Below are positions 32,452-56,707 of a DNA stretch of 56,707 nucleotides, one piece after another (the first letter of the stretch is position 1; each line of letters starts with the position of its first letter). The position numbers and the translations under genes were made by a program. The notes under the pieces were generated by a model that ran no database searches, had not been told where the DNA came from, and saw nothing but the letters and a program-made list of their open reading frames with translations. The DNA is from a virus, in IMG/VR virus record IMGVR_UViG_3300041409_000548, positions 1 through 56,707 of that record. One strand, written 5' to 3'.

Positions 32452-35196
32452 GTGCTCGTGGCGATCCCCCCGGTGTGGGCCGAGTTGAAGGGCAAGTCGG
32501 GTCACTTCGACGCGATGATGGGCCGGTCCGGCGGGAAGCTGAGCCGGTTCTCGAAGGAAGGCTCGGGGCATTTCCGCGGCCTGTCGGGGGTGGCGAAGGG
32601 CGCGCTGCTGGGCGTCGGTGTCGCCGCTGTCGGCCTGGCCGGCGAGGCACTCGGCAGCGTGCGGACGTTCTTCTCCGAGTCGATCGCCGGGGCGCGCGAG
32701 TCGGCGAAGGTGGGCGCGCTGACGAACGCTGTCATCAAGTCGACCGGCGGCGCGGCGAAGCTGACCGCGGTGCAGGTCGGGGACCTGGCGACGGCGATCT
32801 CCAACAAGACCGGTGTCGACGACGAGGCCATCCAGTCCGGCGAAAACTTGTTGCTCACGTTCACGAACATCCACAACGCGGCCGGGAAGAACAACGACAT
32901 CTTCAACCAGGCCACGACGACCGCCGTGGACATGTCGGTCGCGCTGGGGCAGGACATGAAGTCGTCGAGCATCCAGCTCGGCAAGGCGCTGAACGATCCG
33001 ATCAAGGGCGTCACCGCGCTGCAGCGCGTCGGTGTGTCGTTCACGGCGTCGCAGAAGGACCAGATCAAGACGATGGTCAAGTCGGGGGACACCCTCGGCG
33101 CGCAAAAGTTGATCCTGGCGGAGCTCAGCAAGGAGTTCGGCGGCGCCGCAGCTGCCGCGTCGACCCCCGCCGAGAAGGCGCGCGTGGCGTGGGGCAACTT
33201 TCAGGAGATGCTCGGCGGGATGGTCCTGCCGGCCATCGACCGCCTCGCCACGTTCTTCACCACCACCCTGCTGCCGGGGGTGCAGTCGTTCATCACCGCT
33301 CTCCGCTCGGGTACCGCGTCCGGGGCCGGGTTCGCCGGGTTCATGTCGAACGCCGGGGTGAAGGCGCTGCAGTTCGGGCAGTTCTTCAAGGCCGACATCT
33401 TGCCGGCGTTGAAGGCGTTCGCGTCGTTCCTCACCGGCACCGTCGTCCCGGCCGTCGCCTCGTTCGGTGGCTGGCTGATGAAGTACCGCGGCTGGATCAT
33501 CCCCGTCGTCGCCGGTGTCACCGCGATGGTCGTCGCGTTCCGCATCTACACCACGATCCTGGCGCTGGTTCGTGCGGCGACGATCGCATGGATCGTGGTG
33601 CAGGCCATCTTGAACGTGGCCCTGACGGCGAACCCGATCGGGATCGTCATCATGGCGATCGTCGGCCTGGTGGCGATGTTCGTGGTGGCGTGGAAGCGGT
33701 CGGAGACGTTCCGGGCTGTGGTGACCGGGGCGTGGAACGGCATCAAGGCCGCGGCGATGGCGGTCGCGCGGTGGTTCATGGGGACCCTGCTGCCCGCGGT
33801 CTTGTCCGTCTGGAACGGCATCAAGACGGGGATCATGGCGGCGGTCCGGTTCATCATCGGCTACTACCGGATGCTCGGTCAGGGCGTCGTGATGGTCGTC
33901 GGGTTCTTCATCCGCATGTACACGGGTGTGCGGGCGAAGGTGGTCAGCATCATCCAGGCCGTCGCGGGGATGGCCGCGAAGGTCATCGGCTTCATCGTGA
34001 GCATCCCGGGCCGGATCTCGGGTGTCGGTGCGGCGCTCGTGCAGGGCCTCGCGAACGGTATCCGCGGCGCGGCGCATCGGGTCCTGGACGCGGTCCGGTC
34101 CCTGGTCGACAAGATCCCGCAGAAGATCCGGTCCATGTTGGGGATCTCGTCGCCGTCGCGGGTCACCGCCGTGCTCGGGCAGGCGATCGCGCACGGTCTC
34201 GCGCTCGGTATCCACACGTCCACGAAGACCGTGGTGAAGACGGCGCAGAAGCTGATCGACGGGGTCCGCGCCGCCATGTCGTCCGGGCTGCGGGGCGCCT
34301 CGTCGGGTCTGATGCGGGTCCTGACGCGTGAGGACTCGGCCCTGGAACGTCTCGCTCGCCGCCGCGACATCATCATCAAGCGGCTCGCCGACGCCGAGAA
34401 GGCGTACACGAAGGTCCTCAAGGCCCGCGCCGACTACGCGGCGAAGGTCGCCGACTCTGTTGCCGGGTTCGCCTCGATCACCGCCGCGACCGGTGAGGGG
34501 CCGCTGAATTCGGACATGCTGCTGGCGCAGATGCAGGCCCGGATCAGCCAGGTCGTCCAGTTCTCGGGTGTCATCGACCAGCTCCGCAAGGGCGGCCTGA
34601 ACTCGCGCGCGCTGGACGACATCATTCAGAAGGGCCCCGAGGAGGGGTACCGGTACGCGCTGGCGCTGGCGGGTGGTGGGAAGGACGCGATCGACCGCGC
34701 CAACGGGCTGCAGTCCCAGTTGGCCGGCGCGGCGAAGCGGCTCGGCGCGGTCGCGGGGAACGCCATGTACGCGGCCGGGGTGAGCACGGCGGCTGCGCTG
34801 GTGCGGGGCCTGCGGTCGCAGGAGAAGCACCTGGCGGCGGCGATGCTGCGCCTGGCGCGGCTGATGGCGTCGCAGATCCGTAAGGCGCTGCAGATCCGGT
34901 CCCCTTCGCGGGTGGGTCACGGGATCGGCGAGAACTTCGGCCTGTCGCTGGCCGGCGGGGTGCTGGCGGCGGCGTCGGCTGTGCAGTCTGCGGTCGCGGG
35001 GCTGGCCCCGTCGCCGCAGTTCGCGTTGGGCGGCGGGTACCGCGCGCCCGGCCGGGCGGCGGGCACGTCGTGGCCGGATCGGGACGACCGGCCGATCGTG
35101 GTGCAGCTGAACGTGGACGGGCACCGGCTGGTGGAGGCGCTGGTCCCGGCGGCGCAGCGCCGTAAGCAGCGCACCGGCACCTCCGGGTTGGCGTGA
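32452..35196 (+). CDS. Tape measure protein
   Basis: The 914-residue protein is the only very long helical protein in the tail region. It has 'SGHFRGLSGVAKGALLGVGV' near the start, several hydrophobic segments around 330-480, and two 'SPSRV' modules ('MLGISSPSRVTAVLGQAIAH' and 'IRSPSRVGHGIGENFG') typical of tape measures. Its length implies a tail of roughly 135 nm, using the usual 0.15 nm per residue. The start may be the second GTG (32458), better spaced from the GGGGGG ribosome-binding stretch. Confidence 0.92.
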   Translation: MLVAIPPVWAELKGKSGHFDAMMGRSGGKLSRFSKEGSGHFRGLSGVAKGALLGVGVAAVGLAGEALGSVRTFFSESIAGARESAKVGALTNAVIKSTGGAAKLTAVQVGDLATAISNKTGVDDEAIQSGENLLLTFTNIHNAAGKNNDIFNQATTTAVDMSVALGQDMKSSSIQLGKALNDPIKGVTALQRVGVSFTASQKDQIKTMVKSGDTLGAQKLILAELSKEFGGAAAAASTPAEKARVAWGNFQEMLGGMVLPAIDRLATFFTTTLLPGVQSFITALRSGTASGAGFAGFMSNAGVKALQFGQFFKADILPALKAFASFLTGTVVPAVASFGGWLMKYRGWIIPVVAGVTAMVVAFRIYTTILALVRAATIAWIVVQAILNVALTANPIGIVIMAIVGLVAMFVVAWKRSETFRAVVTGAWNGIKAAAMAVARWFMGTLLPAVLSVWNGIKTGIMAAVRFIIGYYRMLGQGVVMVVGFFIRMYTGVRAKVVSIIQAVAGMAAKVIGFIVSIPGRISGVGAALVQGLANGIRGAAHRVLDAVRSLVDKIPQKIRSMLGISSPSRVTAVLGQAIAHGLALGIHTSTKTVVKTAQKLIDGVRAAMSSGLRGASSGLMRVLTREDSALERLARRRDIIIKRLADAEKAYTKVLKARADYAAKVADSVAGFASITAATGEGPLNSDMLLAQMQARISQVVQFSGVIDQLRKGGLNSRALDDIIQKGPEEGYRYALALAGGGKDAIDRANGLQSQLAGAAKRLGAVAGNAMYAAGVSTAAALVRGLRSQEKHLAAAMLRLARLMASQIRKALQIRSPSRVGHGIGENFGLSLAGGVLAAASAVQSAVAGLAPSPQFALGGGYRAPGRAAGTSWPDRDDRPIVVQLNVDGHRLVEALVPAAQRRKQRTGTSGLA

Positions 35197-40391: not shown

Positions 40392-40447
40392 GCACGCAAA
40401 GAGCCCCCCTCGTCCTCTTCGGAGGATGAGGGGGGCTCTTTGCGTGC
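40392..40447. terminator. Bidirectional terminator with UUCG loop
   Basis: A 26-bp stem (one G-T pair) joins 40392-40417 to 40422-40447 around the loop TTCG. The run GCAAAGAG and its complement CTCTTTGC at the stem base give short T stretches on both strands. It separates the end of the late operon from the convergent end of the - strand repressor operon and should stop transcription from both sides. Confidence 0.92.
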
Positions 40448-40455
40448 TGTCCCGT

Positions 40456-40677
40456 TTACCGGACGTCGAGGCCAGTCTTGTCGCGGATCGTCTCGTACGT
40501 CTTCGCGAGCCGGTTCGAACCGGGGTCGGATGCCACGATCGCGATGCCCCCGGGGCCGCTGATGCGCAGGTGCCCCTTGCCAGTCCGGTCTACCGTGCCG
40601 CCCGCCTTGGTGACGGCACGCTCGATGTCGCGGGCCTCCTTGGACCTGCCCCGGCCGGTGCCGCCGCGTGCGCTCAC
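40456..40677 (-). CDS. HicA-like small protein
   Basis: The 73-residue protein has the core of the HicA/dsRBD-like fold: 'IERAVTKAGGTVDRTGKGHL' followed by 'RISGPGGIAIVASD' and a helix 'SNRLAKTYETIRDKTG'. HicA toxins cut mRNA using a conserved His, and 'GKGHL' offers that residue. No HicB partner was found nearby; the upstream GntR-type repressor gene overlaps it by 4 bp, so the pair may form a small operon. Alternatively it is a harmless RNA-binding phage protein. Confidence 0.65.
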   Translation of the reverse strand: MSARGGTGRGRSKEARDIERAVTKAGGTVDRTGKGHLRISGPGGIAIVASDPGSNRLAKTYETIRDKTGLDVR

Positions 40678-41474
40678 GACCCGAGCTCCATCACGTACTG
40701 CAAATCCACCCTGTCCGACGGGATCACGATGTCGCACACCTCCACCACCCGACCCCCCGCCAACATCCGACGCCGCACACACAACACCGGCACACCCTCA
40801 TCGATGTCCAGCTCATCCACCTCATCCAACGCAGGCATCCGCGCCGACACCACCTCCTCCACCGCATCCACCACAACCCCCACCGAATCCAGCTGCGCCA
40901 TCGTCCCCCCCGGCCACGGCTCATTCGCCGGATCCACGATCGGTGTCCCCCCGACATCGCCCATCAGCAGGTAGCTGAACGACCGCCGGTGCGGCTCCAT
41001 CCCCCCGCCCTCATCGAAAAAGAACACGAACGTCCGCCGCAGCAGCGGCGTCAACGGCTCCACCCCGAACGCCCCCGCCAGGTCGTCGTCCGCCCCCACC
41101 ACCGTGGCATGAGCACCCAACTGCCAATCCCGGAACTCGTGCCCATGCGTGAACGGCGCGTCATCACGGGCATCCGCCGGCCGGGACAACTGCGCCCGCT
41201 CGTCTTCGTAGTGCGACGACGCCCGCCGCCGCACCACCCGGTGCGGGCGCACGAACCAGCCCCGGCCCTGCGCCGACGAGATCAGGCCCTCCGACTTGAG
41301 CAGCGTCAACCCCTGCCGCGCGGTCGTCGCCGACACCCCGAACTCCGCCGCCAACGTCTGCTGCGACGGCAGCAGGGCGCCGGGCGGGAACTCCCCGGCG
41401 GTGATGCGTTCGCGGAGCGCGTCGGCGAGTTGCTTGAACGGTGGCCGGTCAGACCTCGGGTTGATGCTCGTCAT
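40674..41474 (-). CDS. GntR-family (UTRA) transcriptional repressor, KorSA-like
   Basis: The 266-residue protein has a GntR winged helix at about 12-75 ('QLADALRERITAGEFPPGAL', 'AEFGVSATTARQGLTLLKSE', 'GRGWFV') and a UTRA-type ligand domain at about 95-260, ending in 'VLCVRRRMLAGGRVVEVCDI'. Repressors of this class (KorSA of pSAM2, KorA/TraR of other plasmids) keep transfer genes silent in actinomycete elements. It is transcribed away from the transfer cluster, with an operator-like palindrome between them, which fits self-regulation and repression of transfer. Confidence 0.88.
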   Translation of the reverse strand: MTSINPRSDRPPFKQLADALRERITAGEFPPGALLPSQQTLAAEFGVSATTARQGLTLLKSEGLISSAQGRGWFVRPHRVVRRRASSHYEDERAQLSRPADARDDAPFTHGHEFRDWQLGAHATVVGADDDLAGAFGVEPLTPLLRRTFVFFFDEGGGMEPHRRSFSYLLMGDVGGTPIVDPANEPWPGGTMAQLDSVGVVVDAVEEVVSARMPALDEVDELDIDEGVPVLCVRRRMLAGGRVVEVCDIVIPSDRVDLQYVMELGS

Positions 41475-41520
41475 CGGCGGGTCCTCTCTGGGCGCGCGTC
41501 AGTAGGTGACGGGAACTTGT

Positions 41521-41540
41521 GCGCCTATTGACATACGCGC
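41521..41540. promoter_or_regulatory. Candidate GntR operator over a -35 element
   Basis: GCGC-CTAT-TGAC-ATAC-GCGC is a near-perfect inverted repeat (outer GCGC and inner TAT/ATA match). It contains TTGACA at 41528-41533, a consensus -35 for rightward transcription. No ideal -10 is seen, the nearest being TCTCAT at 41554-41559, so the spacing is long. Binding here would block the transfer promoter and could control the repressor gene itself. Confidence 0.5.
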
Positions 41541-46409: not shown

Positions 46410-48527
46410 GTGGGCCGCCGCACCGCGCCACCGACAGCGTGGCCCCCGAAACGGGGCCACCTGTCCCTCGTGCCGCCCATCCTCGCCGCGCCCCGCGACC
46501 GCCTCGAATGGAAGGCGTACCAGCGGGAGATGGCGGAGATGGCGCGGCAGGGCGCGGCGTGGCGGCGCACCTGGCGCGGCATCCGGCGGCTGTGCCGCTT
46601 CGGATGGGCACACCGCCGCGGCCTCGCCCCCCTGTACCTCGCCGTCGCCATGGAAATCAGCGGCGCCGTCCTGTCCACCGCCGAGAAGGGGTACGCCACC
46701 GTCCTCGCCATCTCCACCGTGCTGGCACCCGTCCTCGTCCGCCGCCTCCACCGCTGGCCGGCGCGGTTCCCGTGGGAACCCGCGTCGAAGACACCACGCA
46801 AGCCCGTGCCGCGGCGCCAAGCCGTGTGGGTGTGGACCCTGTTCGCCGCCGTCACCGCGTGGCTCACCGCCGCCGCGAACACCGGCGCAGGGCCGCCGAT
46901 GCCCGGGTTCCTGCTCATCGGCTTCATCGTGTGGAGCCTCGGATGGTGGAGCCACCACCGCATCCGCCCCCGCACCGCCGACGACCCCCGCGTGCAGCTG
47001 TGGGGCGACTACGTGGCCTGCACCGACGGGCCGCTACCGAAAGCCGTCCTCCACGACGTGCTCCCCATCACCGCCGCGCAGTACGCCGCCGGAGCCCAAG
47101 CCGTCGGCGTCACCACAGGCGGCGGCACCTCCGAGCCGATCGGCTGGACCGGCACCAGTTCCCTGCCACCCGGCAAGAACACCGCCACCCGGGCGATGGC
47201 GAAAGTCGAAGACGTGGCGTCCGCGTTCTCCCTCGACGCGCAGTCCGTCGTCCTCGAACCGGTCGACCCGCCGCGCGCCGACCGGGTCAAGGTGTCCGTG
47301 TACGAACACAACCCGCTGCGGAACGTGCTGCCGTGGCCGGGGCCGCACCTGTTCGACCCGGAGACGGGGATCGTGCCCGTCGCTCTGTACCAGGACGGGC
47401 AGCACGCCCTGTACCGGTACTACCGGCGCGGGTCCGGCCCCGTCCATGACCTCATCGCGGGCACAACCGACGCCGGCAAGTCGCGGCTCCTGGACATGTT
47501 CCTCGCGATCGAACGCCACAACTGGATGGTGTCGTTCGTCATCGACCCGCAGGAAGGCGCGTCCCTCCCGGTGTGGAAGGACCAGCCGGACGGGAGCCGC
47601 GCTGTCCACGGCTACGCCCGGAACGTCACCGAAGGCCTCTCGCTGCTGAAAGCCATCTACGCGGAGATGAAGGCCCGGAACCGGTTCATGGCGAACTACG
47701 AATGGACCGACGAGAAGGGCCGCACCCGCTACGGCCTCGACCACTTCGACCCGGCGTTCTGGGCGACGAGGGAAGATCCGGCGGACCGGCTCTGCCTGCT
47801 GTGCCTGACGATCGACGAGTCCCACGAACTCCTGAACGAGCCGTCCGGGCAGGGGAAGGGCCGCGCGGAAGACATCGGGAAGATGGCCCGCAAGTGCGGC
47901 ATCAAGCTTCGGCTTGTCACGCACGTTCCGACGCTGGACCAGCTCGGCGGGTCGGGCACCCTGCGGGACATGGTGAAGTCGCAGGTCGTGGTGCTCCGCA
48001 CGGGCACGCCCCTCGTGGGGCAGGTCGCTTTCTCGGGGCGCCTCCCGGTGGACCCGGTCAGTATCCCGATCGAGTTCCCCGACCGTTCGTCAACAGCCGG
48101 CATGGGCTACATCCTGGGCCCGGGGGCGCGGCCGGCGCCGGTGCGGACGTGGCTGGTGGAGGACGCGACGCATTGGGCGACGACGGGATCACTGACGCCG
48201 TTCACGCCGCTGTCGCCGGAGCTCGCCGCGTGGATGGGCGGGGCGCGGGGCGCCGGCCAGCGGGGGGCGCCTGTGGCGGTGTCGCAGCCGCCGGTGGGGG
48301 TTCCGGCGCCGCGGACGGCGAAGCAGCAGGTCGCGGAGTATCTGCGGCTTCGTGGCACGCAGGTGGGGCGGCAGGTGATCGTGAGGGAGTTGGGGATCGA
48401 GGCGACGCAGGTGTCTCGGGCGTTGCGGGAGCTGGGTGAGGAGGGGTTGGTGCATCAGCCTGATTGCCGGCCGGGTATGTGGGCGGCGGGTCCGGGTGTC
48501 GAATCCGCAACAGAGGTGCCGGTGTGA
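46410..48527 (+). CDS. FtsK/SpoIIIE-type DNA translocase (plasmid transfer protein)
   Basis: The 705-residue protein has hydrophobic segments within residues 70-180, then an FtsK-type motor with Walker A 'LIAGTTDAGKSRLL' (about 348-361) and Walker B 'CLTIDESHELL' (about 464-475), 'KMARKCGIKLRLVTHVP', and a C-terminal winged helix (about 639-695, 'QQVAEYLRLRGTQVGRQVIV', 'ATQVSRALRELGEEGLVHQP'). Proteins of this plan are the single transfer pump of actinomycete elements, moving double-stranded DNA between cells; the C-terminal domain recognises short repeats in clt. It is far larger than needed for virion packaging and has no standard role in a phage. Confidence 0.88.
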   Translation: MGRRTAPPTAWPPKRGHLSLVPPILAAPRDRLEWKAYQREMAEMARQGAAWRRTWRGIRRLCRFGWAHRRGLAPLYLAVAMEISGAVLSTAEKGYATVLAISTVLAPVLVRRLHRWPARFPWEPASKTPRKPVPRRQAVWVWTLFAAVTAWLTAAANTGAGPPMPGFLLIGFIVWSLGWWSHHRIRPRTADDPRVQLWGDYVACTDGPLPKAVLHDVLPITAAQYAAGAQAVGVTTGGGTSEPIGWTGTSSLPPGKNTATRAMAKVEDVASAFSLDAQSVVLEPVDPPRADRVKVSVYEHNPLRNVLPWPGPHLFDPETGIVPVALYQDGQHALYRYYRRGSGPVHDLIAGTTDAGKSRLLDMFLAIERHNWMVSFVIDPQEGASLPVWKDQPDGSRAVHGYARNVTEGLSLLKAIYAEMKARNRFMANYEWTDEKGRTRYGLDHFDPAFWATREDPADRLCLLCLTIDESHELLNEPSGQGKGRAEDIGKMARKCGIKLRLVTHVPTLDQLGGSGTLRDMVKSQVVVLRTGTPLVGQVAFSGRLPVDPVSIPIEFPDRSSTAGMGYILGPGARPAPVRTWLVEDATHWATTGSLTPFTPLSPELAAWMGGARGAGQRGAPVAVSQPPVGVPAPRTAKQQVAEYLRLRGTQVGRQVIVRELGIEATQVSRALRELGEEGLVHQPDCRPGMWAAGPGVESATEVPV

Positions 48528-48543
48528 GCCGTCGACCCGGTCG

Positions 48544-49977
48544 TCACGCCTTCCACGTGATGTCGACCGCCGCCGGATCGAAATAGGCGCCGCCCGGCAG
48601 GCGGCCCCGCCGCCCCGGCAGGATCGTCACCGTCACCAACGCATCCACCACCCCACGACGCCGATCCAAATCCAACCCCGCCCACACCGACCCCACATCA
48701 GGCACACCAGCCACCACCGACAGAGCCGAACGCTGCGACACCCGCGCGATCCGATCCTGCACCGCCTCCAACCGGGCATGCAGATCCCGCGACCCCGCCG
48801 CGAACTGCCTCGCATCGATCGCCGGGTTCTCACCCGCGAACAACCCCGCCAACTCGTCCAGCCGAGTCCGCAACACCTGAGCCTGCGTATGCAGAGCCGT
48901 CGTATCCGGCCGCTGATCCCCAGCCGCCAGCAGGCCCGCCGCGTCCGCCCGCCCCAGACGCGCCAACACGGCGCGCGTCACGAACCCGTCCACCGCCGCC
49001 GCATCCCGGTACACATGCCCACGAGTCGGCCGGCACCGGTACCCCGGCTTGTGAACCCCACTCCCCGTCGTCGTGGACGACACCAGCATCGGCGCCCCGC
49101 ACACCCCGCACACGTACAGCCCCGACCCCAGCCACCTACGCCCAGCCGGAGGCGACGTCCGCCGCGCCGGATCCCCCAACAGGGAACACAAAGCCCGCCA
49201 CGTGTCCTCCGTCAAAATCGCAGGCCACTTCGCCGCACCGATCACACTCTTCTGGTGCTGCCGCAAACCGGCGTTCCTCGGCCGCACCAGGACCCGCCCC
49301 ACCTCCCTCGGCGCCCACGCCCGTCCCGTCGACGTCGTCACCCCGCGGGCGTTCAGGTCCGCCGCGATCCGGCGCAGCGACCCGCCCGACAGGACGATGT
49401 CCGCCGCCGCGGCGATGACCGCCGCCTCCGACTCGACCACCGTGACACCGTCCGCCGCGTACCCGAACGGTCGCCGGCCGCCGCGCCACTCCCCGTCCGC
49501 CGCCAGTTCCAGGCTCTTGCGTTTGAGGCGTTCACGCTGGTGATCCACTTCGTACCTGGCGACCGCGCCGAGCAGGCGGGCTTGGAGCCATCCGGCGGGG
49601 GTGGTGTAGTCGATGAGCCCCGCTTTCACGGTCTGGGTGACGACACCGCGTTTCTCGCAGAGGGCCCCGTACTCTTCGGGTTCGACGATGGAGCGGTGCA
49701 GGCGGTCGGTGTGCCAGACGAGGACACCGCTGTAGCGGCCGGCGTCGATGTCGGCGAGGAGCCGCCGGTAGCCGGGGCGGGGTTTGCCGCTGTAGGCGGA
49801 CAGGTCGTTGTCGACGTAGACGTCGGTGACGTGCCAGCCGAGTTTGGCGGCGAGTTCGCGGCAGTCGGCTTCTTGGCGTTCGACGCCGAGGCCCGCACCT
49901 TCCCGGTCGCGGGAGATGCGGGCGTAGATCGCGGCGGGAATCGCGGGGATCGGTGTGCCCGGCGTCTGCTCGCTCAC
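48544..49977 (-). CDS. int: Serine integrase (large serine recombinase)
   Basis: The 477-residue enzyme has a resolvase N-terminal domain with the nucleophile Ser22 in 'IYARISRDREGAGLGVERQE', followed by 'DNDLSAYSGKPRPGYRRLLA' and 'VWHTDRLHRS'. A recombinase domain ('GGRRPFGYAADG', 'SGGSLRRIAADLNARGVTTS') and a zinc ribbon ('GLYVCGVCGAPM') follow, then a coiled coil. It would integrate the circular genome at attB and, with the excisionase-like protein, excise it. Its end lies 16 bp from the convergent translocase stop, so no attP fits downstream of it. Confidence 0.93.
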   Translation of the reverse strand: MSEQTPGTPIPAIPAAIYARISRDREGAGLGVERQEADCRELAAKLGWHVTDVYVDNDLSAYSGKPRPGYRRLLADIDAGRYSGVLVWHTDRLHRSIVEPEEYGALCEKRGVVTQTVKAGLIDYTTPAGWLQARLLGAVARYEVDHQRERLKRKSLELAADGEWRGGRRPFGYAADGVTVVESEAAVIAAAADIVLSGGSLRRIAADLNARGVTTSTGRAWAPREVGRVLVRPRNAGLRQHQKSVIGAAKWPAILTEDTWRALCSLLGDPARRTSPPAGRRWLGSGLYVCGVCGAPMLVSSTTTGSGVHKPGYRCRPTRGHVYRDAAAVDGFVTRAVLARLGRADAAGLLAAGDQRPDTTALHTQAQVLRTRLDELAGLFAGENPAIDARQFAAGSRDLHARLEAVQDRIARVSQRSALSVVAGVPDVGSVWAGLDLDRRRGVVDALVTVTILPGRRGRLPGGAYFDPAAVDITWKA

Positions 49978-50363
49978 GGAGTGGTCTCACGGAAGCACAG
50001 GCGGCACCGATCCTCGGGCGCGGGCAGCTCAGCGGGCACCCGCTCCATCTCGCCGGCATACCTGTGGCAGCGCGTCCAGATCGGATCGGTCACGACGAGC
50101 AGGTGCGCCTTGCCGCGCTTCGGGTGACGCGCCGCCTCCGCCGCGCCCGCCGGGTCGGTTCCGGGGCCGTGGCGGCGCGCCTGTCTGGCGTTGTCGCGCT
50201 CTCGCTCTGCCTTCACCACGAGGGCGGAGAGAGACGCCACCTCGGCACGCAGATCAGTGACCTCGGCCCCAAGTATTTCCTCGCGCGCCGCATCCCACGC
50301 GTACCGCCGGAAGGCCGGGGCCGGAATCGCCTCGTTGATCCGGGCGGCCCCCTCGGGGTTCAC
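49974..50363 (-). CDS. Coiled-coil protein upstream of the integrase gene
   Basis: The 129-residue protein has a central coiled coil ('EILGAEVTDLRAEVASLSAL') and a C-terminal Cys/His motif ('TRCHRYAGEMERVPAELPAP' then 'DRCRLCFRE'). It starts at a GTG overlapping the upstream stop and its own end overlaps the integrase start. It is probably transcribed together with the integrase. The function is unknown. Confidence 0.65.
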   Translation of the reverse strand: MNPEGAARINEAIPAPAFRRYAWDAAREEILGAEVTDLRAEVASLSALVVKAERERDNARQARRHGPGTDPAGAAEAARHPKRGKAHLLVVTDPIWTRCHRYAGEMERVPAELPAPEDRCRLCFRETTP

Positions 50364-50545
50364 GAGGTGGCCTCGGCCGACGACGCCTTGCCGCGCCGGT
50401 AACCGAGTACCAGGCCGCGCAGGTAGCCGAGTACCAGCGTCAGAGCCATCGGGAACGGGACCGCCAGCGGTCCCGCCAGTGCCACCGCCGCGATCCCGAG
50501 GATGGCAAAGACGACAAACGCGTGCCAGACCGTCGCCGCGCTCAC
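50360..50545 (-). CDS. Small two-pass membrane protein
   Basis: The 61-residue protein has two hydrophobic segments ('AFVVFAILGIAAVALAGPLA', 'PMALTLVLGYLRGLVLGY') and a charged tail. It overlaps both neighbours by 4 bp in the integrase operon. No function is known. Confidence 0.62.
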   Translation of the reverse strand: MSAATVWHAFVVFAILGIAAVALAGPLAVPFPMALTLVLGYLRGLVLGYRRGKASSAEATS

Positions 50546-51024
50546 GGGGTGGCCTCACGACGGTGCTCATCCGCGGATGCGTCAGCGCTGTCGAAGTCCT
50601 CGTAGCCCGTCGCCTCTTCCCGGCAGCCCGGCACGGCCGCTGCCTCGCGGAGAGCCTTCTCGGCGCCGCGCTGCTCGGCCACCGCGAGCTCGCCGCGCAG
50701 ACGCTCGATCTCGGCGTTGGCCTCAAGCAACTCCATGGCCTTGGCGCCGAGCACGTGGTGCGCTTTCTCCACCTCGGCGCGCAGGCGAGAAACCTCGGCA
50801 TGGATGGCGTCACGCGGCTCGGCCGCCCCCTCGCTCCCACGGATGGCCTGCGTGAGCAGTTCCTCCACCGGTCCGTGCGGGTGCCACCCGCAGTGCGACT
50901 CGTGCGGCCACCCGCCGCCGCCGACGCAGGTGCAGCCGCCGACGTGCTCGACCAGGTAGCCGTTCATCACATCGAAGCGCGGCGGCTCGGTGGTCGGAGG
51001 TGTGCCCGGTGTCTGCTCGTCCAT
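50542..51024 (-). CDS. Zinc-binding and coiled-coil protein, first gene of the integrase operon
   Basis: The 160-residue protein starts at an ATG behind AAGGGA. It has a metal-type motif ('VEHVGGCTCVGGGGWPHESH' then 'CGWHPHGP') and a coiled coil ('EVSRLRAEVEKAHHVLGAKA', 'NAEIERLRGELAVAEQRGAE'). The plan, with 'EQTPGTP' at the N-terminus and a Glu/Arg coiled coil, partly echoes the two following genes. The promoter should lie at the palindrome 32 bp upstream. Confidence 0.65.
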   Translation of the reverse strand: MDEQTPGTPPTTEPPRFDVMNGYLVEHVGGCTCVGGGGWPHESHCGWHPHGPVEELLTQAIRGSEGAAEPRDAIHAEVSRLRAEVEKAHHVLGAKAMELLEANAEIERLRGELAVAEQRGAEKALREAAAVPGCREEATGYEDFDSADASADEHRREATP

Positions 51025-51055
51025 GACAGTCCCTTCAAGCGGCGTAAGGAAGTAT

Positions 51056-51097
51056 GTCACACCTTGACATTCGCGATCGCGAATGTCAAGGTGTGAC
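51056..51097. promoter_or_regulatory. Perfect 42-bp palindrome between divergent genes
   Basis: The two 21-bp arms (51056-51076 and 51077-51097) are exact complements with no loop. Each holds TTGACA (51064-51069 on +; 51084-51089 on -), and the centre is TTCGCGATCGCGAA. It lies between the integrase operon (-) and the gene at 51264 (+). The likeliest role is a symmetrical operator with paired -35 elements, so one dimer or tetramer could shut both directions; no clear -10 is seen. Alternatives are a cruciform-based replication or resolution site. Directional attP is unlikely, because a perfect palindrome has no polarity. Confidence 0.8.
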
Positions 51098-51263
51098 GCG
51101 TCTACAGACAGCAACCGTCACCCTGAGGGGACGGGCGATCAACACGCGGCGACCTTCGATCGTGAGCTGCGTTGCCCGCAAACCTCCCACCGCGCGACGC
51201 CTGTGACGCATGATGGAAACCGACGCGCAACGCCGGGACACCCCGGCCACGAGAGGCGGACCC

Positions 51264-51596
51264 ATGACCCGGACCCCAGCGCAACTCCCCACCTGCCCCG
51301 ACTGGTGCCAGCTCGCGGCAGGCGACCCCGGGCACGGCCACAACGACAACGACGAACACGCCCACGAACGATCCATCGGCACCGTCACCCTCCGCGGCAA
51401 CGACGGCACCGAAGAAGTCTGGGTGTCCGTCCGCCGCTACACGTCGCCCGGCGGCACCGACACCAAGCCGCCCGCCGTCGTCATCACCCGCGTCCGCCCC
51501 ACCGGACCCATCGAAGTCCGGATCACCGACGCGGGCGGCATGCGGGCACTCGCCGAAGCCATCGTCGCCGCCACCGACTTCCTCGAAAGCCTCTAG
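51264..51596 (+). CDS. DUF6907-like protein
   Basis: The 110-residue protein has the family start 'LPTCPDWCQLAAGDPGHGHN', a 'CPxWC' motif, then 'EERS/HERSIGTVTLRG' and an all-β middle ('EEVWVSVRRYTSPGG'), closing with 'GMRALAEAIVAATDFLESL'. DUF6907 proteins are common in actinomycete elements; the role is unknown. The ATG has GAGAGGCGG upstream; an earlier ATG at 51210 is less likely. It is transcribed away from the palindrome. Confidence 0.72.
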   Translation: MTRTPAQLPTCPDWCQLAAGDPGHGHNDNDEHAHERSIGTVTLRGNDGTEEVWVSVRRYTSPGGTDTKPPAVVITRVRPTGPIEVRITDAGGMRALAEAIVAATDFLESL

Positions 51597-51654
51597 ACGC
51601 CAAGCCCACGGCGGGTGCCGGGTTCCGCGTCACCAGCCGACATGAACTTTCGGC

Positions 51655-52050
51655 TCACCCGCGCCCGTTGAGTCGCTCATCCGACCTGGCGACTTCCTCG
51701 AGCATCCGCAGCACCACGTCCATCACCGCCCGCTGCCACGACGCGTCCACGCCCGCCATCGCGGCGACGACCGCGAGCTGCTCGGTGTTGAGGGACGACA
51801 CGGGTGGCTCCTGCCCGGCGGCCAGGAGCGCGTACCGCTGGACCGCGGCGAGGGGCCGTCCGAGGCCGGATGCGATGGCCTGCAGGATCTCCGTCGGTGG
51901 AAGCCGCGTCATGTCGTTGCGGAGCCACCTGCCGAGCTGGACGTCGCTTATGCCGCCGTCACGGGCGACCTGAGCTAGTGACTTGCTGCCTTTCTCTTGC
52001 TCGACGTACTGGCCTAGCGCGTTGTAGCGCGACTCCGCACCCGTGGTCAT
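51655..52050 (-). CDS. XRE-like repressor candidate
   Basis: The 131-residue protein has a helix-turn-helix of the Cro/CI type at about 24-62 ('SLAQVARDGGISDVQLGRWL', 'LPPTEILQAIASGLGRP') and a helical C-terminal region that may form dimers. It is transcribed divergently from the excisionase-like gene across a 144-bp control region. It is the best candidate for the immunity repressor of the early operon. Confidence 0.8.
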   Translation of the reverse strand: MTTGAESRYNALGQYVEQEKGSKSLAQVARDGGISDVQLGRWLRNDMTRLPPTEILQAIASGLGRPLAAVQRYALLAAGQEPPVSSLNTEQLAVVAAMAGVDASWQRAVMDVVLRMLEEVARSDERLNGRG

Positions 52051-52063
52051 GTCTAAGGATTTA

Positions 52064-52074
52064 CCACGTCGTGG
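52064..52074. promoter_or_regulatory. Palindrome CCACGTCGTGG near the repressor start
   Basis: The 11-bp palindrome (5-bp arms, one central T) is centred 19 bp upstream of the repressor ATG. It would lie over or just downstream of the repressor promoter, so it could be the site of self-control. The surrounding bases are locally AT-rich compared with the genome. Confidence 0.45.
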
Positions 52075-52117
52075 ACGGTTATCCCGCCTTTACCTCAAGC
52101 GAAGTACTTGCAGCTTG

Positions 52118-52147
52118 TTGACACTCGACGTCGTTAGATGACATGAT
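52118..52147 (+). promoter_or_regulatory. Early promoter (TTGACA - 18 bp - CATGAT)
   Basis: TTGACA at 52118-52123 matches the -35 consensus. CATGAT at 52142-52147 fits four of six -10 positions at 18-bp spacing. Transcription would begin about 40 bp before the excisionase-like gene and run through the whole early operon across the circular join. This is the most complete promoter seen in the window. Confidence 0.62.
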
Positions 52148-52157
52148 CTCCGTCATC
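52137..52157. promoter_or_regulatory. Inverted repeat over the early -10 region
   Basis: GATGAC at 52137-52142 pairs with GTCATC at 52152-52157, leaving nine bases between. It covers the -10 element and probable start of transcription. A repressor dimer bound here would block the early promoter; the divergent XRE-like protein is the natural candidate. Confidence 0.5.
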
Positions 52158-52194
52158 AGATGATGCGCCCGGCGGTCCTCGGGAGGACGGCGAG

Positions 52195-52434
52195 ATGGCA
52201 ACCCAGACAGGCGGGATGACGCACGAGGAGCTGTTGGAGCTCCCCGCGATCGTCGACCTGGAAACCGCGGGGAGGGCGTTCGGGATCGGCCTCCGCACGG
52301 CGTACACGCTGGTGCAGCGGGGCGAGTTCCCGGTGCGGACGTTGCGTGTGGGGCGGCAGTACCGGATCCGGCGGACTGATCTGTTGAAGGCGGTCCTGGC
52401 CGGCGGCGAGCCCGACGGGAGGCCCGCCGCATGA
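52195..52434 (+). CDS. Excisionase-like helix-turn-helix protein
   Basis: The 79-residue protein has the AlpA/excisionase (helix_turn_helix_17) pattern: 'VDLETAGRAFGIGLRTAYTL' followed by 'VQRGEFPVRTLRVGRQYRI' and 'RRTDLLKAVL'. Such proteins direct integrases toward excision or act as small regulators. It is the first gene behind the early promoter, so induction would give it at once. It is 1.8 kb from the integrase operon and on the other strand. Confidence 0.82.
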   Translation: MATQTGGMTHEELLELPAIVDLETAGRAFGIGLRTAYTLVQRGEFPVRTLRVGRQYRIRRTDLLKAVLAGGEPDGRPAA

Positions 52435-52580
52435 CCGCGCCCGAGGCGGAGCCGGAGCCCGAGTGGGCCGCCGTTGCTGACGCCCTCGCCGCGCAAGCAC
52501 CGCCCCTCACCGCCGAGCAGATGACCCGGCTGAGGCTGCTCCTCACCACCCGCCTCGCCCCAGACAGCGACGCCGCCTGA
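52431..52580 (+). CDS. Small acidic protein
   Basis: The 49-residue protein starts at an ATG overlapping the excisionase stop by 4 bp. It has an acidic N-terminus ('MTAPEAEPEPEWAAVADALA') and a helix 'AEQMTRLRLLLTTRLAP'. Very similar small proteins often follow excisionase genes in actinomycete elements. The function is unknown. Confidence 0.65.
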   Translation: MTAPEAEPEPEWAAVADALAAQAPPLTAEQMTRLRLLLTTRLAPDSDAA

Positions 52581-52648
52581 CCAACGACCGAGCCCCCCGC
52601 TCTCCGGCAAGAGAAACGCGAGGGGCCCAGACACAGAGAGGCTATCCG

Positions 52649-52891
52649 ATGCCCGACCAGACGATCCGCTTCGCGGAGGTCAAGCACATCGCCATCAAGT
52701 CGGTCCCGTGCGAGGTGTGCGGGAAAAAGGTTCGCCGTCAGCAGACGTTCTGGCAGACGCTCAACCCGTTCAACAAGAACGCCAGCGGCTTCCCGAAGGA
52801 TGCCTCCGAGATCCGGGCCGAGCTTCGTGTCGTTGCGGCCGAGTGGGAGCAGCAGCCCGAGCGGCACGCCCGCTGCGAGGTGCAGTCGTGA
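52649..52891 (+). CDS. Zinc-knuckle protein
   Basis: The 80-residue protein contains 'VPCEVCGKKVRRQQTFWQTL' and ends 'ERHARCEVQS', so a CxxC and a His/Cys pair could hold zinc. The 68-bp gap before it holds a weak GC-rich inverted pattern but no convincing terminator. No family was recognised. Confidence 0.62.
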   Translation: MPDQTIRFAEVKHIAIKSVPCEVCGKKVRRQQTFWQTLNPFNKNASGFPKDASEIRAELRVVAAEWEQQPERHARCEVQS

Positions 52892-53262
52892 CCGCCCCCG
52901 CGTCCGGCGACAAGGTCCTCGACCTGCTCGTGGCGGGCCGCGAGTACTTCGCAACGCACGAGTGGAACCGGGACGGCACCTACTTTGCGGGCACTCCGTT
53001 CCGCCCGGACGTCAGCACCTGCTGCGCCGTCGGCGCGGTGCTGGCCGCCGCGGGGGCCGACAGCGAGTCCGGCTTCGTGCGCGCGACGGAGATCCACCCG
53101 TCCGACATCAGCGACGCGCTGTACGAGGCACTGACGCCCGAGCAGAGGTACGTCCCGGGCAACTTCTACTACTTCAACGACTTCATCGCGGAGTCGAAGG
53201 ACGAGATCCTCGCGGTGTTCGACCGGGCCATCGAGGCCCGCAAGTCGGCGGTGCAGTCGTGA
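52888..53262 (+). CDS. DUF6197-like protein (copy 2)
   Basis: The 124-residue protein has the pattern 'LLVAGREYFATHEWNRDGTY', 'DVSTCCAVGAVLAAAG' and 'YYFNDFIAESKDEILAVFDR'. It is the closest relative of the 42709-43059 product; a 59-bp stretch near the end is nearly identical in DNA. It starts at a GTGA overlap. Confidence 0.75.
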   Translation: MTAPASGDKVLDLLVAGREYFATHEWNRDGTYFAGTPFRPDVSTCCAVGAVLAAAGADSESGFVRATEIHPSDISDALYEALTPEQRYVPGNFYYFNDFIAESKDEILAVFDRAIEARKSAVQS

Positions 53263-54101
53263 CCCCGCAGGTGGGCGACATCGTCGTCTACATCGGCCAC
53301 CGCGACGGGTGGCGATGGCGCCTCCGCCGCAACGAGCGGATCCCGTACATCGTCACTGTCACCGGCAGCGACTGGGCCGTCGCTCACGCCATCGGGTTGT
53401 CTGAGCACGTCGGCGAGACGATCGACGTGCCGCTGCACGACCTCAGCGTCACCCACCGCGCCTCCTACACCCGCGTCTCCTACGCCGACGCCCAGCCGGC
53501 GGCCCCTGCCCCCTCCGATGACACCTACGACTGGCAGCACGACGGCCGCACCGGTAGACGCACGGTCGATCTCGTCGAGGCTGCGGTTCGCCGTGACGAC
53601 GGCACGTTCGAGGCCCGCTACTACGACGGCACGGTCGTCCCGTACGGCACCGAGGATGCGCTGCGCGCGGTGATCGGCGTCTACCGCCTGATCTTCACCG
53701 AGGCGGAGTTGGCCGAGCAGGGGCGGGTCCGCGAGTGGCGCCGCCACTACACGTTCGCCGACGGCCACATCCACAGTGAGCCGTACGCCGGGCTCGCCGC
53801 GTACCGCGCCGCCCTCGCGGCGAGGGACGCGGACGCTGCCGCCGCCGAGGTCGAGGCGTTCTACACCCGGCAGGGCTACACGCAGTACGTGGGCCGCTAC
53901 GTCGGCCCCTCCGCCGGGCTCGCCGTGATCGTCCGCATGAAGCGGCAGATCGTGTCGAAGTCGGGGCTGGCGTTCCTCCGCAACGAACTGGCCCTGGCGG
54001 TGAAGCGTGACGACGGGAACGGTGAGTGGTCGGTGTTCTCGGCCCTCGCCGGCGGCGACTTCGGCGGCCTCGACTTCGGCGACTTCACCGTCTCGCACTG
54101 A
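53259..54101 (+). CDS. Hypothetical two-domain protein
   Basis: The 280-residue protein has an N-terminal β-rich part ('VGDIVVYIGHRDGWRWRLRR', 'RIPYIVTVTGSDWAVAHAIG') and a helical C-terminal part ('LAAYRAALAARDADAAAAEV'). In the middle is 'DWQHDGRTGRRTVDLVEAAV'; the motif DWQHDGRT recurs in the 54392-54724 product. No family was recognised. It starts at a GTGA overlap. Confidence 0.65.
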   Translation: MTPQVGDIVVYIGHRDGWRWRLRRNERIPYIVTVTGSDWAVAHAIGLSEHVGETIDVPLHDLSVTHRASYTRVSYADAQPAAPAPSDDTYDWQHDGRTGRRTVDLVEAAVRRDDGTFEARYYDGTVVPYGTEDALRAVIGVYRLIFTEAELAEQGRVREWRRHYTFADGHIHSEPYAGLAAYRAALAARDADAAAAEVEAFYTRQGYTQYVGRYVGPSAGLAVIVRMKRQIVSKSGLAFLRNELALAVKRDDGNGEWSVFSALAGGDFGGLDFGDFTVSH

Positions 54102-56592: not shown

Positions 56593-56707
56593 CACGCGGA
56601 CACGTCGTGCGGCTCCCCGACGGCACCCCCGACACAACCCTCACCTACGTCCGGCTCCGAGTCCTCGCCGCCGCGCAAGCCGGCCACAACATCGACAGCA
56701 TCACCCC
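56589..56707 (+). CDS. Hypothetical protein, N-terminal part (gene crosses the circular join)
   Basis: The GTG at 56589 overlaps the upstream stop by 4 bp. The frame runs off the end of the window and continues at the start, ending at 250. The N-terminus reads 'VTRGHVVRLPDGTPDTTLTY'. That the frame and protein continue smoothly across the 69-base overlap supports a circular molecule. Confidence 0.75.
   Translation, partial: MTRGHVVRLPDGTPDTTLTYVRLRVLAAAQAGHNIDSIT
56639..56707. repeat. Terminal direct repeat, right copy
   Basis: These 69 bases are identical to positions 1-69, with no mismatch. Confidence 0.95.

Follow-up and report, generated by a model that had tools for sequence, protein, structure and literature searches.

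The window analysed here is a virus contig of 56,707 nucleotides whose first 69 bp (1-69) are identical to its last 69 bp (56639-56707), and we therefore take the record to be a full genome of 56,638 bp that is circular or was assembled as a circle. Its source is a temperate, tailed phage of actinobacteria, and the phage genes present include those for a large terminase with phage relatives, a portal, a capsid and a tape-measure protein. From a 42-bp palindrome at 51056-51097, four genes run leftward (51024 to 48544) with their ends overlapping stop to start. The first (50542-51024, minus strand) encodes a 160-aa protein of no known family with a His/Cys-rich stretch followed by a coiled-coil-like region, the second (50360-50545, minus strand) a small hydrophobic protein of 61 aa that overlaps the neighbouring genes, and the third (49974-50375, minus strand) a protein of about 133 aa with an uncertain start, whose stop overlaps the int start codon. 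The last is a large serine integrase with Resolvase, Recombinase and zinc ribbon domains (48544-49977, minus strand), separated by a gap of 16 bp from a convergent FtsK-like gene. To the right of the palindrome lies a divergent DUF6907-like gene (51264-51596, plus strand), which encodes 110 aa from an ATG with a ribosome site and scores just under the curated cut-off. Beyond it come an XRE-like HTH protein (51655-52050, minus strand) and, to the right of that gene, an HTH_17 excisionase-like protein (52195-52434, plus strand).

Upstream of the coupled int operon there is a single non-coding stretch, the gap at 51025-51263, and this is where the palindrome lies. An earlier note on this DNA had placed it between the integrase operon and a divergent gene, in agreement with the leftward ATG at 51024 and the rightward ATG at 51264. 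Since the operon genes overlap and int has no upstream gap of its own, the gene layout leads us to expect the int promoter in the 51025-51263 gap, at the palindrome.

A further stretch of the tailed phage genome, 40674-48527, carries plasmid- or integrative-element-like genes: a HutC-type, KorSA-like GntR regulator, a membrane protein whose C terminus holds an HTH, and an FtsK/SpoIIIE-like protein of TraB-like look with a winged helix at its C terminus. A DUF2637/SpdB identity was considered for the membrane protein near 43.2-43.8 kb and was given up, with no support from Pfam. The regulator itself (40674-41474, minus strand) combines a GntR domain (PF00392, 69.5 bits) with a UTRA domain (PF07702, 38.9 bits), a type of domain that often binds a small ligand. 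A very strong hairpin (40392-40447), with 26-bp arms, one mismatch and a TTCG loop, separates the structural genes from the gntR side and is probably a strong terminator, perhaps a two-way one.

The palindrome, GTCACACCTTGACATTCGCGATCGCGAATGTCAAGGTGTGAC, is identical to its own reverse complement, with arms of 21 bp each, no mismatch and no loop, as first described, and the two central letters of its CGATCG middle are AT. No other gapless palindrome in the window is as long, its 21-bp arms comparing with arms of 7 to 11 bp in 40 first-order Markov genomes, and the count of 21-bp arms expected in the window from base composition is about 3e-7. The earlier note, too, had judged a chance origin very unlikely. 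In 625 kb of other DNA, the next-longest gapless palindrome has an 18-bp arm and belongs to phage phiC31. The flanks diverge directly outside the 42 bp, which makes a fold-back chimera unlikely. Within the window, the 26-bp core of the palindrome has no second copy, even with 3 mismatches allowed, and the half-site TTGACATTCGCG shows no excess over chance.

Mirrored TTGACA elements had been pointed out in the palindrome, and they are found at 51064-51069 on the plus strand and 51084-51089 on the minus strand. Each opens a promoter-like pair, TTGACA-N17-CAAGGT, recognized as a consensus match. The rightward pair (51064-51092, plus strand; -10 at 51087-51092) faces the DUF6907-like gene, and the leftward pair (51061-51089, minus strand; -10 at 51061-51066) faces the int operon, such that the -35 of each direction touches the -10 of the opposite direction. 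Start points are predicted near 51054 and near 51099, at a distance of about 45 bp, and the -10 element, CAAGGT, is weak. TTGACA occurs six times in the 56.7 kb, while exact TTGACA followed by N16-19 and NANNNT is found at four sites (41528, 51064, 51084 and 52118), every one intergenic. The pair at 41528 adjoins gntR, and that at 52118 is an early promoter-like pair, TTGACA-N18-CATGAT (52118-52147, plus strand), between the XRE-like and HTH_17 genes. Around this early promoter, repeated AGATGA/GTCATC elements (52118-52180) are candidate sites for the XRE-like repressor. A search for intrinsic terminators (a GC-rich hairpin plus a T run) returned no terminator-like site in 48000-53500.

Each arm of the palindrome is, moreover, a smaller dyad in itself, GTCA-N5-TGAC (13 bp). 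The left copy, with its core at 51056-51068, extends to ATGTCA-N5-TGACAT at 51054-51070 and so reaches 2 bp past the palindrome edge, and the right copy occupies 51085-51097; the two centres are 29 bp apart, which is not a whole number of helical turns. GTCA-N5-TGAC has three copies in the whole genome, one per palindrome arm and one upstream of gntR. This third copy (41498-41510; CGTCA-N5-TGACG, 15 bp) begins at -36 relative to the gntR start codon. A random occurrence in the 123-bp gntR gap has a chance of about 0.002 before correction for looking, a figure that must be discounted, the motif, eight bases with a spacer, having been picked after both sequences were inspected; corrected for the patterns and promoters examined, the chance level of the link is perhaps a few per cent. 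Shuffled arms produce a dyad of the ATGTCA-N5-TGACAT type in 0.9% of cases. A 12-mer that the palindrome shares with the gntR promoter, TTGACATACGCG (41528), had initially been regarded as the connection; most of it is the -35 box, and the dyad at 41498 took its place.

A check that is partly independent of this after-the-fact motif choice comes from relatives of the GntR regulator, which were collected by protein similarity; 40 promoters, the window's own included, were compared. Seven relatives (L026, L027, L032, L034, L037, L038 and L152) have 14-bp GT...AC dyads at -29 to -40, a range that takes in the position of the window's gntR dyad (-36), and in each of them there is another such dyad at -79 to -101. 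The far copy lies inside a longer palindrome in L034 (28 bp) and L026 (30 bp), and in L152, from Nocardia farcinica, it has the same 13-bp geometry, GTCC-N5-GGAC. A near GT...AC dyad is present in 8 of the 40 promoters (window included), against a mean of 2.0 and a maximum of 7 in 300 shufflings, and is missing in 32. The GT...AC spacing of GntR sites is usually shorter. Perfect or near-perfect palindromes (14-30 bp) were also observed in the own promoters of GntR relatives L025, L026, L030, L034 and L038, often paired and about 55-60 bp apart. On Streptomyces and Kitasatospora plasmids, other relatives (L149, L150, L151 and L153) stand directly ahead of glycosyltransferase genes, and on plasmid pMR2 one is found alongside FtsK/SpoIIIE, DUF2637, xis and int genes.

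DNA and protein searches of phage, plasmid, viral and genome collections returned no relative sharing the operon. Integrase relatives are at best 44% identical, with the upstream genes common to none, and terminase relatives (up to 53%) lack both this integrase and any TTGACA-N8-22-TGTCAA. The sequence TTGACATTCG-N3-CGAATGTCAA also occurs in two viral contigs, but there it lies within a coding region and was set aside as a coincidence. Among the integrase relatives, TTCTACAGGCCGAC, the 3' end of an NlpC/P60 gene, is found directly before int in L005 (1476-1520) and, reversed, just upstream of int in L004 and L008; it is likely a common attachment target.

We propose, with confidence that is about evenly balanced, that the phage's own GntR/UTRA repressor reads the palindrome as a mirrored double operator, superimposed on two back-to-back promoters. 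The leftward promoter would drive the operon ending in the serine integrase and the rightward promoter the DUF6907-like gene, both using the same bases in opposite directions. One repressor dimer would occupy each 13-bp dyad, the left sub-dyad serving as dimer site 1 and the right as dimer site 2, and either dimer alone could shut both promoters, each dyad overlying one promoter's -35 together with the opposite promoter's -10. The dyad upstream of gntR would act as an autoregulatory operator through which the repressor limits itself, as KorSA does on pSAM2. An operator is supported by the anatomy of the locus and, more weakly, by the GntR motif. The earlier proposal of a symmetrical operator for both directions thereby stands as the best-supported reading, on account of the only non-coding gap before the int operon, the promoter-like hexamers on both strands and the sub-motif upstream of gntR; promoter activity, the identity of the repressor, its binding and the claimed effect on integration are what we infer from this arrangement. 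Against a double operator counts the perfect arm of 21 bp, which exceeds what one needs. Furthermore, the motif published for SCO3932, a KorSA relative, AC[TC]T[AG]TT[GC][TG][GT]ACG, is different and asymmetric, with only its ...TGACG end in common, and this poor match would speak against a simple transfer of specificity.

The readers suggested earlier for the operator were the XRE-like, GntR-like and excisionase-like proteins, and while the GntR protein is favoured, the anatomy would be identical for an operator over both promoters read by the XRE-like repressor, the HTH_17 protein, another phage protein or a host regulator. Such a reader is possible, if on the unlikely side. The XRE-like gene lies 560 bp from the palindrome on the int strand, and a 2-mismatch ATGTCA-N5-TGACAT occurs at 52128-52144 in the XRE-like/HTH_17 promoter gap; this gap contains no exact dyad, however, and proximity and that one site are what link the XRE-like and excisionase-like proteins to the palindrome. 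As for the host, matches to TTGACAT...ATGTCAA in 297 Pseudonocardia-family genomes mostly look like unrelated singletons, and no host regulon with this site is visible in these genomes, of a family that may not be the host's. A bolder variant is that the site is a fully two-fold symmetric promoter, on which polymerase would load either way on identical bases, each loading excluding the other, giving an even toss between the int operon and the DUF6907-like gene until a repressor or the flanking DNA biases the choice. We consider this fairly improbable. It is also clearly doubtful that the palindrome is, or overlaps, the attP of the serine integrase, although a complete circle must contain attP and no gap upstream of int is nearer to it than the one with the palindrome. 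The Bxb1 attP needs 48 bp and that of A118 is pseudo-palindromic, and TCTACAG at 51101-51107, beside the palindrome, resembles the P60-gene sequence adjoining int in relatives. Yet that match spans 7 bases and is expected about twice per genome, and the likely junction in relatives coincides with the int start instead of lying 1.1 kb upstream. Additionally, an asymmetric central dinucleotide is the sole determinant of polarity in Bxb1 (PMC3642061), whereas the AT at the palindrome centre is its own complement, an objection that applies only if crossover takes place at that centre.

Further explanations were weighed as well. The palindrome could act as RNA: within a read-through leader it would form a 19-bp hairpin, either cleaved by RNase III or masking the ribosome site. 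The minus strand folds very stably (z about -6), and its hairpin stops about 20 bases short of the first ribosome site. However, there is no T tract and hence no terminator, a promoter inside the hairpin would start transcripts past it, TTGACA on both strands is unexplained by the needs of an RNA, and Rfam gives no match. Such a leader hairpin, though possible, is not needed, and as the explanation of the palindrome it is very unlikely. The full symmetry might instead have arisen without selected function, a short operator being symmetrised by template-switch repair at a hairpin, or through sequencing or assembly error. Perfect palindromes are known to arise by hairpin-templated correction, but the exact promoter hexamers and the intergenic position argue against an origin of this kind, as do flanks that differ at once and arms shorter than a read, and we give it a slender chance. 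The earlier alternative of a cruciform used in replication or resolution found no support, and a hairpin telomere, replication origin or packaging signal appears extremely unlikely. Telomere phages do have one large palindrome beside the protelomerase gene (PMC10612081), but PF16684, the telomere-resolvase family, has no match in the genome, where a serine integrase is present instead. GC-skew extremes fall near 8 and 36 kb, with none at 51 kb, and the terminase and portal genes are 33 kb away.

The double operator favoured here can be set beside several known systems. The CIB repressor sites of phiC31 are likewise perfect, intergenic palindromes of a temperate actinophage, one of them 36 bp long, but sites of the CCTACTCACGTGAGTAGG type number at least 15 in phiC31, whereas the palindrome here is a single copy of unrelated sequence. 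The CIB core CCTACTCACGTGAGTAGG is absent from the window, and a tblastn search of the window for a homologue of the phiC31 repressor gave no significant match (best E 0.79). In phiC31 (L079), a CIB-type core is enclosed in a perfect palindrome of 36 bp (34772-34807) with a T run behind it, where operator and terminator appear to be fused. In mycobacteriophages BPs and L5, operators similarly lie between or over the -35 and -10 of phage promoters, and the repressor/int gap of BPs has two divergent promoters; the palindrome nevertheless differs from the BPs site CGACATATGTCG and from the L5 sites, which are asymmetric and multi-copy, and there is no multi-copy motif here. An L5-type stoperator reading was dropped, since the half-site resembles the stoperator end but has no further copies. 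Bacterial bidirectional promoters (Warman, Grainger) also have elements symmetric on both strands, with divergent transcripts expected. Theirs share a -10 and start 7-25 bp apart, in contrast to predicted starts about 45 bp apart here; a natural, perfectly symmetric lysogeny coin would be new, if true.

The comparison extends to operators of the KorSA/HutC type (pSAM2, SCO3932 and pMR2), with which the phage shares a GntR+UTRA regulator, dyads in the regulator's own promoter, control (here proposed) of an int gene cluster and an FtsK/SpoIIIE-like gene on the same element. In pSAM2 this control runs via pra, the activator of repSA-xis-int, KorSA being reported to bind both its own promoter and that of pra and to repress both genes (PMC8584621). 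Here, by contrast, the element is a tailed phage, and a perfect 42-bp mirrored site, in sequence unlike the SCO3932 motif, lies directly on the serine integrase operon. If the double-operator reading is right, the integration decision of a tailed phage would be tied to a repressor of the plasmid/integrative-element type, with one binding event silencing both directions; the serine integrase would have a compact switch next to it, and polymerase behaviour on a perfectly symmetric promoter would have a natural test case. The palindrome would then be a remarkably tidy instance of a familiar type of genetic switch, with the arm-internal dyads newly noted here.
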